DNA from: Earliella scabrosa
Taxonomy: Eukaryota > Basidiomycota > Agaricomycetes > Polyporales > Polyporaceae
Direction of reading: 5' to 3'
Length of the DNA: 64,000 nucleotides
Assembly (NCBI GenBank): GCA_022605405.1
Contig: JABYQQ010000011.1
Coordinates: forward strand, 744,001 to 808,000
The notes beneath the pieces are model-generated. The model was not told where the DNA came from. It made no database searches and worked only from the letters and a program-made list of their open reading frames with translations. Positions within the stretch are counted from its first letter, which is position 1. Each line of letters begins with the position of its first letter. This document shows, piece after piece, positions 9,103 to 12,366 of the stretch. The translations under genes were made by a program, and so were the position numbers.

Positions 9103-10473
9103 GGCGTCAAGAGGTTCGAGTCTCTGTCTCTGGAATCCCAAAGCAAGCTCTGTACCCGCTTGAGGTAGATCTGTACGACCCTTCGAGGAGCTCCTTGTAG
9201 GTGCTAGCGATCGTCAGGCCTAGATTGATTGGGGAGGCTAAGATCCTATATGTGAGGATAGCAAGAACATATCAGTGGACGACATAACGAACAACTCGTT
9301 ATCACTTTACCTCGCTGCTCCGGCGGTCGGGACGGTTCGAGTGGTCGAACTTGATCGTTTGCCACTGGCTTCGAGGCGCGCCTGTACTGTGGAATAGTTC
9401 TTGAAGCGGCTCCTTTCCAAAGGTAAGTGAGCGACGCCATCGTTAGCCATAGTTCTCAAACGCACCTTCTGCCGAGAGCGATGCCTTGAGCGAACTTGAT
9501 GGAACGCGCAAACATGAGTATGGCGCAAATTGGGCTCGGCCGTTGCCGTTGTTTGCACGCGTTACGTCACGCGTTCTGTCACGGTGACTATTAGACGGCC
9601 CTCGACACTGACTGGGGCCTGCCAGGCGGTCACACTATGTAGTAGACCAAGTATCGTGCGCAACGGGGCCGTCGAAGCTCTATCAATACGAAGGAAAACG
9701 CCAAAGCCTCCCCGTATGACTTAAGTCACGCCACAGCAGGGATAAGCACTCCTTACTAAAGTAACATTCAGCCGACGAGGCATCACTGACCGGTTACATG
9801 CAATGGCAATTTTACCTCGTACACTTCCACCGTGACCCGCCAGAACTTCATCGGGACTATGACGTCCGGGCCCGCGTCAAGCTGCTCGCCTCACCGCCGT
9901 CCGTGATGATGAGGCGAGCGGCGGTAGCTTTATCATCGACGCGGAACTTCGGGCGCAAGTCTGGGCGATGGGCGCGCATGATGTTTGAAGTCGGATGGAT
10001 GGGAGGCATCAAAGCCCCGGATTTCATCACGACATGCACCCAGAAGAGCCACCAAGCAAAGGTGCTGCATTGCTTGTGGCTTGTCGACGGGCACTCGGGC
10101 CCATCCCTCCGGGCGCTGAGATGCGCCCACTATTCGGTCGGTATGTGCATAGGACCGGCCGACGGATGGCGGACAAGGGGTTCCCTGGTATGTATGTCTT
10201 GCGCTGAGTAAGAGCCATGCCCGAGGCTCACTCATGCGCCCGACTTGCGATGGAAACAGGTACCGCGACAACTGCTAGCTGCACAATTCAGTCTACCGTC
10301 GCAAGGCGGCCATGTCGTGCTCGCTGAGCACCGGGACAAGGACGCGGAAACGCACAGGCGGCGCGAAGAACCCCTATTTAAACCATCCTGCACAGAGCGA
10401 AAGTCAGTCAACAGCTCGCTACGCCTCGCTCCATCTAGTCAGACACGAGCACGCACCCCCTACACCACACGCC
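9103..10473. other. Intergenic, promoter of repeat-peptide gene
   Basis: Holds the 5' side of the minus-strand F-box gene and, near 10374, a TATA-like element for the next plus-strand gene. Several 100-140 codon ORFs overlap on both strands between 9798 and 10271, without a signal peptide, domain or intron logic; I do not call them genes. Confidence 0.55.
10374..10382 (+). promoter_or_regulatory. TATA-like box of the repeat-peptide gene
   Basis: CTATTTAAA about 100 bp upstream of the ATG at 10474, a spacing similar to that of other small secreted-protein genes in this window. Confidence 0.5.
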
Positions 10474-11055
10474 ATGCAGCTCCTCAACTTTGTTCTTTCC
10501 GCCCTCCTCGTGAGCCAAGGTACGTCCAGATGCCCGTCCTGCGCGCATTGCTTGTCCAGGAAGCTGACTACCTGCATCTTGCCCGCCACAGTTTGCGCTC
10601 TCGCCATCGACCGACGTGACGAGGCCGGTGTCGTCGAGGTCGACGGAACCCCAGGCTGGAAGCGTGGTACGCCCGGTTGGAAGCGCGGTACGCCCGGTTG
10701 GAAGCGTGGTACGCCCGGTTGGAAGCGCGGGACCCCGGGCTGGAAGCGCGACCCCTCGCCGGAGCCGGCCACGCAGTCAGCGGTGCAGTCCTCGGCGGCA
10801 CCCGCAACCACGAAGATCTCCGCGCAGCCCACGAAGGGCTCGACCATCGACACGAAGGTCCCCGCGCAGCCGACCAAGGTGAACACCAAGCTCCCTCGCA
10901 AGGAGACCACGCCGATCCCGACCCCGAAGACGACGAAGCCGGTCTTGGACACGACGCTCCACTGGTCCACGAAGGGCACGTCCGCGAAGACCACGGGCAC
11001 GCCCCGGACGGCGCTGCCGCAGACGAGCGCATCCGTCGCCACTGCGCATCACTAG
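10474..11055 (+). CDS. Secreted Kex2-type repeat precursor with five GTPGWKR units
   Basis: Two exons, 10474-10519 and 10592-11055, joined over a 72-bp GT...AG intron (phase 1), give 169 residues. Residues 1-20 (MQLLNFVLSALLVSQVCALA) form a signal peptide. A dibasic site follows (IDRR, residues 21-24), then the spacer DEAGVVEVD. Residues 34-68 are five perfect tandem GTPGWKR heptapeptides, each ending in the Lys-Arg that Kex2-family proteases cleave after in the late Golgi. The remaining 101 residues are rich in Thr, Pro, Lys and Ser, with AQPTK twice. Inference: the precursor would release the short peptide GTPGW (after trimming of KR) in several copies, as known Kex2-processed repeat proteins do. 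No CaaX end is present, so it is not a classical basidiomycete mating pheromone. No UstY-like or other tailoring gene is next to it. Function unknown; a modified peptide or a signal are both possible. Confidence 0.82.
   Translation: MQLLNFVLSALLVSQGTSRCPSCAHCLSRKLTTCILPATVCALAIDRRDEAGVVEVDGTPGWKRGTPGWKRGTPGWKRGTPGWKRGTPGWKRDPSPEPATQSAVQSSAAPATTKISAQPTKGSTIDTKVPAQPTKVNTKLPRKETTPIPTPKTTKPVLDTTLHWSTKGTSAKTTGTPRTALPQTSASVATAHH
10645..10749 (+). repeat. Five 21-bp in-frame tandem repeats encoding GTPGWKR
   Basis: Units start at 10645, 10666, 10687, 10708 and 10729. Units 2-4 are nearly identical in DNA. Units 1 and 5 differ from them only at third codon positions (Gly, Thr, Pro, Gly, Arg codons), so the peptide is invariant while the DNA has drifted. 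Confidence 0.97.
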
Positions 11056-11581: not shown

Positions 11582-12366
11582 TCACGCTGAGCCTCCAACC
11601 TCTGCAAAACACACAAGGAACATCAGCATGCGCCATGCGTGGCTCCCGATGAACGGCACGTACGTTCTACCATGACATCGATTGTGTCTGCAGTTAGAGT
11701 CGGGTCAGCATCTGAGCGCCGATGAGAAGATGGGCCACAAGACAGCGCACGCACCGTTGTCCTCCATTCCGAGCGATGCTGGTGTGTCATCGTCGCTGAT
11801 CCGCTCTCCGTCGTACAAGAACCTGCGCAAAGCGAAGCAACATGGGTCAGCGGAGAGAACTTCCCCCGAACCCAAGCGCCGGAGTCCCTGTCGCCAAACC
11901 TTGTTGCCGTCGTCCCCCCTGCCCTGGCAGACGGCCGACAGAGGATGGCGCGAGAGGAGGCGGAGACGGTGGCGCGTGCAGAGCGGGTGTAGATGTGTTG
12001 CAAGAGACACTCACCGGATACTGCTCACGTCCTTGCCGACCTTATTCGCGTATGCCCCTTGCAGCTTGCTCAACTTCGTATTACGCTTAATCTTGAAGAA
12101 CACCTCCTCGTTCGTCTGGGTCACAACCTGCATAACAACAAAGCACGACCACCGTCAGCCTGAGCCCCCCGCCGTCGCGCACAAGTGCAAGCAAGACCCA
12201 TTCGGCCAAGATGTAAGCCAAAAACCACCGAGACTCCGCTCGCAGCGCACGATGCATCTCGGTCAAGACTCAATGAGTGCGCACGTACCTTGATATTGAT
12301 GGGCGCGTTGGCGTCCTCCATCTTGGGCTGCTCGTCCTGAGCAGATCCTGGTTCTTGGTCGGCCAT
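11582..12366 (-). CDS. SUMO (ubiquitin-like modifier, Smt3 family)
   Basis: Small ubiquitin-like modifier that is conjugated to lysines of target proteins through its processed C-terminal diglycine. Five exons on the minus strand: 12289-12366, 12015-12127, 11755-11822, 11664-11687, 11582-11601. They sum to 303 nt, 100 residues, with phases consistent throughout. The acidic N-terminal tail MADQEPGSAQDEQ is followed by the ubiquitin fold: INIKV, NEEVFFKIKRNTKLSKLQGA, then FLYDGERI and the C-terminal DTIDVMVEQVGG. The chain ends GGSA, so the usual SUMO protease must remove two residues to expose GG. Length and motif order match Smt3/SUMO closely. The tiny fourth exon (24 nt) is easily missed by gene finders. 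Confidence 0.95.

Follow-up and report, generated by a model that had tools for sequence, protein, structure and literature searches.

The window, by which we mean the whole 64,000-nucleotide stretch analysed here, comprises bases 744001-808000 of contig C11 in a 51.7-Mb genome of 48 contigs. Frame reading places a predicted precursor gene on its plus strand, with two exons (10474-10519 and 10592-11055) that together encode 169 residues; an earlier note on this DNA had proposed these coordinates, the 10519/10592 junction and five perfect GTPGWKR units, all of which we confirm in the DNA. A TATA-like element, TATTTAAA, lies on the plus strand at 10375-10382, about 90 bases 5′ of the ATG at 10474, and may function as such. 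Exon 1, MQLLNFVLSALLVSQ, accounts for the bulk of the predicted signal peptide, and the N-terminus preceding the IDRR sequence is hydrophobic, with a mean hydropathy of up to 2.53 per nine residues (judged by hydropathy only). The predicted 72-nt intron (10520-10591, plus strand) runs from GTACGT to CACAG with donor and acceptor evident in the DNA, and a branch-like CTGAC occupies positions 10564-10568. There is no in-frame stop within these 72 nucleotides, so that a retained intron still leaves an open frame of 193 residues, and the database entry for the precursor is indeed a 193-residue protein in which the intron is read through.

Exon 2, assigned by its frame and codon score, encodes the remainder of the signal peptide, a pro-segment, the repeats and a tail, and ends at a TAG stop codon (11053-11055). 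The first dibasic site, Arg-Arg at residues 23-24 (10612-10617), is followed by the short stretch DEAGVVEVD and then by five tandem 21-nt units, each encoding GTPGWKR (10645-10749). The 101-residue tail (10750-11052), in which Thr (23), Pro (14), Ala (12), Ser (10) and Lys (10) are abundant and whose role we can only suggest, begins with DPSPEP, in which the X-Pro dipeptides look like Ste13 sites. Pfam scans returned no match for the 169- or the 193-residue reading or for the antisense frame described below, and an Rfam scan of the window gave no match. Among 27 other ORFs and proteins of the window, Pfam identifies five F-box-like domains, one copper amine oxidase exon and one SUMO, with one match below the cut-off (DUF1317) and 19 without any. 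The five long ORFs with F-box-like domains make positions 5257-30784 an F-box-rich neighbourhood, and the SUMO gene, read as five exons on the minus strand at 11582-12366, converges on the repeat-peptide gene.

Nowhere else in the six frames of the window do at least three identical units of 6-14 residues, each ending in a dibasic site, follow one another. A degenerate GTPGWKR pattern finds five matches in the genome, all of them inside the array, with none for the reversed-pattern control, and a search of the 51.7-Mb genome revealed no paralogues of the precursor, the two matches obtained being weak (E 0.36 and 0.78). The five units vary at five columns, all third codon positions (3, 6, 9, 12 and 21), requiring a minimum of seven changes, and all seven are synonymous, as the earlier note had claimed of the unit DNA. 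Three simple point-mutation models predict a silent share of 25-27%, giving a chance of about 7e-5 to 1e-4 for this outcome when the changes are taken as independent and homogenisation between copies is ignored. The silent-only differences thus support the view that the GTPGWKR peptide is under selection, and the earlier proposal of a Kex2-processed repeat precursor with a constrained peptide is supported by the sequence.

An antisense open frame of 209 codons also crosses the region (10422-11048, minus strand), in which the array reads as five perfect copies of RFQPGVP, because the silent positions coincide on the two strands. With codon scores trained on 2665 codons from six window ORFs with Pfam matches, the sense strand is favoured over the antisense strand both in exon 2 (+8.8 versus -10.4 bits) and in the tail (+13.4 versus -4.3), while the repeats taken by themselves give -7.7 for the sense and -0.5 for the antisense frame, the best there being another sense-strand frame (+4.9). 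The DNA of units 2-4 is nearly identical, suggesting that part of the array is young, and this, together with the disfavouring of the sense frame over the repeats and the perfect repeats of an open antisense frame, is what would be expected if the units had arisen by recent tandem duplication in DNA that is non-coding or codes on the antisense strand, and gave no functional peptide. Such a duplication would not account for units 1 and 5 departing from the others at silent sites only, nor for the recurrence of the core in other genera (see below), and in the antisense frame no Met occurs before residue 68 and the scores over exon 2 and the tail are lower; we therefore regard this explanation as highly improbable.

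Kexin cuts after Arg-Arg and Lys-Arg. Kex2 would likely cut the precursor after its Arg-Arg and after each Lys-Arg, following which a Kex1-type carboxypeptidase would likely trim the Lys-Arg residues to leave a free Trp end. Only four of the five units are flanked by dibasic sites at either end, and the product of unit 1 would be DEAGVVEVDGTPGW, so that the likely output is four linear GTPGW peptides and one N-extended copy, not five copies of GTPGW. Because the array copies have no separating residues, unlike those of the relatives that we have read, Kex2 and Kex1 alone would give the mature peptide. The calculated [M+H]+ values are 517.2405 for GTPGW, 645.3355 for GTPGWK and 1430.6434 for DEAGVVEVDGTPGW. 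The reading that we prefer and consider probable is that of a predicted secreted precursor whose five GTPGWKR units are processed by Kex2 and a Kex1-type enzyme in this manner; splicing, signal-peptide cleavage, Golgi processing, the mature C-terminus and the absence of cyclisation are all inferred from sequence.

A different fate for the units would be to serve as cores of a cyclic dikaritin-type RiPP, with Kex2 cleavage followed by modification by UstYa-type oxidases. Precursors of the ustiloxin type are reported to have the same architecture, a signal peptide with Kex2 repeats (PMC7329392), and there are at least 19 UstYa matches in the genome. The nearest match detected on C11 is, however, about 291 kb from the precursor (among the best candidates, 20 of 20 scored), and Pfam identifies no UstYa among the 27 other window ORFs and proteins, where the sole enzyme domain is the copper amine oxidase exon. 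As no UstYa match was detected closer than about 291 kb, the data lend no support to a UstYa-modified RiPP, and we view it as very unlikely; a further point against it is that a DUF3328 gene is described near only 22% of fungal KEP genes (PMC7329392). Nine of the at least 19 UstYa (DUF3328) matches are located between positions 1046516 and 1275195 of C11, a span of about 230 kb that is likely an expanded RiPP-type region.

Searching the protein database (5.8 billion; 1384 candidates) with the whole precursor recovered only itself at E values up to 0.1, and thus no orthologue covering its full length. When residues 40-95 of the 193-residue reading were used as query there were weak matches to a metagenome protein (E 0.78) and a Termitomyces protein (E 2.8), and both contain Kex2-type repeats ending in APPW, APGW, TPGW, PPGW and SPGW, among others. 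The Termitomyces sp. Mi166 protein (P0004) has GTPGWRR, GPPGWKR and GSPGWRR following EPEA-type spacers, and its unit KR-EPEA-GTPGW-RR would yield exactly GTPGW once two dipeptides had been removed. A profile built from these two proteins and the precursor, with the 7996 candidates sharing most words scored, identified ten further proteins, of which six (P0005-P0010) have E values of 5.3e-15 to 3.8e-8; these are from Lyophyllum shimeji, Arthromyces matolae, Favolaschia claudopus, Mycena epipterygia, Termitomyces sp. Mi166 (a second protein of this fungus) and a metagenome. The five genera of the named relatives are all Agaricales, in the families Lyophyllaceae and Mycenaceae. The weak matches P0011-P0013 (E 0.007 to 2.1) were used in counts only, and P0014 (E 9.1) was left out before counting, as its two Trp residues before dibasic sites are not repeats of one unit.

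In the 12 counted proteins, 72 of 82 Trp residues precede a dibasic site or stand at the protein end, and 53 of these 72 are in the form PGW. For P0005-P0013 alone, nine proteins that exclude the profile members, the figures are 51 of 60 and 37 of 51; the search words favour PGW, and the PGW shares are thus biased upward. Trp is the last residue of the protein sequence in seven of the 12, two of these seven (P0003 and P0009) being on short metagenome contigs and perhaps truncated. Since several relatives end in PGW, Trp is likely to be the mature C-terminus once the Lys-Arg is trimmed. Like the precursor, P0004-P0008 and P0010 mostly have Ala, Thr, Pro or Ser before PGW, followed by KR, RR or KKR; they differ from it in having units of at least six residues between dibasic sites, some of them starting with X-Ala or X-Pro, and in that all six begin with MR and five of the six end in Trp. 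Across 11 relatives, an X-Ala or X-Pro start is present on at least one piece in eight. By these searches, the GTPGW core belongs with a larger group of repeat proteins from other Agaricales whose units end in PGW.

These comparisons also bear on the tail, which at 101 of 169 residues and with its abundance of Thr, Ser and Pro could be taken for the working part of the protein, possibly glycosylated and belonging to the cell surface or cell wall, with the repeats forming a removable pro-region and the free peptides being by-products. A pro-region would have no need of five identical copies, the silent-only unit differences point to selection on the units, and the tail has no counterpart in the relatives that we have read, the ends of the six named ones reaching 13 residues at most (P0008). 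We accordingly think a working tail unlikely.

The genome contains further genes of this general type. The Termitomyces protein query, which gave two weak matches on C4 and C9 (E 1.49 and 3.94), together with a triple Trp-Lys-Arg pattern led to a cluster of three Kex2-type repeat genes within about 8 kb of C10 (940973-948925), each with Ste13-like X-Ala or X-Pro dipeptides. As read from their repeats, the first (940973-941209, beginning MRPSFIAVF) has QNKDW units after EA, the middle gene (about 945780-946260) has QNTGGKPW units after EA, EADP or EAEP, and the third (948494-948925, beginning MRAQIITS) has QVRTVDW units after EP or DP; in two of the three, Trp is the very last residue. In the middle gene a TAG interrupts the frame immediately ahead of the first unit; the gene may be a pseudogene or an allele, or the stop may come from an assembly error or an intron that was not recognised. 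The triple pattern occurs in five places (14 overlapping forward matches, with one forward and four reverse for the reversed-pattern control). An open frame of 153 codons at C14:273208-273666, with GRGQSWKR/GRGHRWKR-type units, was set aside because it has no evident secretory N-terminus, and is possibly another frame of a repetitive gene; the C20 place was rejected as a repeat gene, being low-complexity.

The enzymes that the proposed processing calls upon have counterparts in the genome: a kexin gene on C15 (PDB Kexin, E 7.1e-78), a DPP-IV-family gene (matching the DPP-IV N domain) and S10 carboxypeptidases, for which there are 62 matched pieces with Kex1 not singled out among them. STE3 receptors are encoded on C20 and C22 with none on the precursor contig, and a mating-locus link for the precursor was rejected on these grounds; a search for STE2, run without a positive control, gave no match in the genome. 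Together with the Agaricales relatives and the KEP-like genes, the STE3 genes suggest an agaricomycete, likely one that forms mushrooms.

Fungal Kex2-type repeat precursors are described as widespread, with peptide functions that are largely unknown (PMC9769878), and by the KEP criteria of Le Marquer they contain at least three near-identical motifs at dibasic sites that make up at least 15% of the protein (PMC6339444). The five identical seven-residue units here constitute 35 of 169 residues (21%), the genome encodes the C15 kexin, and Trp stands directly before the dibasic site in five of five units. Trp-ending cores have already been described in basidiomycete KEPs (PMC9769878, PMC6339444), and this, with the sharing of the core by PGW-ending Agaricales proteins, qualifies the description of the peptide as a candidate new one in the earlier note, which holds for the precursor as a whole in that it matches only itself at E values up to 0.1. 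The same note called GTPGW unusually short; its length is not special, given that published KEP motifs are reported to be as short as three residues (PMC6339444), although the 11 relatives, with 58 internal Trp-ending pieces between them, have none of five residues, the shortest being six. Literature text searches returned nothing relevant, as judged by title and abstract, for GTPGWKR, GTPGW or PGWKR, which published KEP tables may nonetheless list, nor for PSWKR, ADWKR, SDWKR or APSWRR, and none was found for KEP, KEX2 and Polyporales in combination.

The precursor would provide a very simple KEP test case, with a predicted five-residue product in four free copies from a single gene, likely no Ste13 step, and the same predicted product in Termitomyces. 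GTPGW is likely to act as an extracellular signal, either among hyphae in an alpha-factor-like manner or towards other organisms, but this is a guess because knock-outs of six Coprinopsis KEP genes are reported to have given no phenotype (PMC9769878). The cross-genus xPGW pattern is to our minds the most interesting part, and suggests that there may be a common receptor or target.

Peptides of a similar kind are known from animals. Peptide amidation uses a Gly following Trp; molluscan PGW peptides are amidated, whereas in the fungal units Trp comes directly before Lys-Arg, as in GTPGW-KR, which leaves no Gly there to act as amide donor. Molluscan APGWamide precursors are described as containing repeats of APGW, RPGW, TPGW, KPGW or SPGW amides (PMC5996578), and share with the fungal proteins a signal peptide (here predicted) and many short PGW-ending repeats. 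Slugs are reported to be important consumers of fruiting bodies (PMC8855016), and the mushroom xPGW peptides could be imagined as convergent mimics of the molluscan xPGWamide neuropeptides, with an (A/T/S)PGW core and the same multi-copy type of precursor, aimed at fungus-eating slugs and snails; we hold this to be an extremely unlikely idea.

Filamentous ascomycete alpha-pheromones often end in Cys-Trp. With ascomycete alpha-type pheromone precursors the present gene shares a secreted (here predicted) repeat precursor and dibasic cutting, and it differs in having no Pfam match and no Ste13 signature in the array, in which the units run KR-GTPGW without spacers. Its closest parallels are the Trp-ending agaricomycete KEPs, namely Coprinopsis GPPAPSW and QYKAPSW (in Pichia), Lentinula SGTGEASAADW, Pleurotus SGVAADW and the basidiomycete XSDW, a conserved motif reported together with Ste13 signatures (PMC6339444). 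Mass spectrometry has revealed Trp-ending KEP peptides in Coprinopsis, Lentinula and Pleurotus, and the peptides from three mushroom genera are described as linear and minimally modified (PMC9769878). The precursor has in common with these a predicted signal peptide, dibasic sites and Trp-ending peptides, and departs from them in its shorter GTPGW core, its identical spacer-free copies, the lack of Ste13 dipeptides in the array and its long Thr/Pro tail. On this comparison we would place it among the known agaricomycete KEPs, as a minimal representative without spacers.
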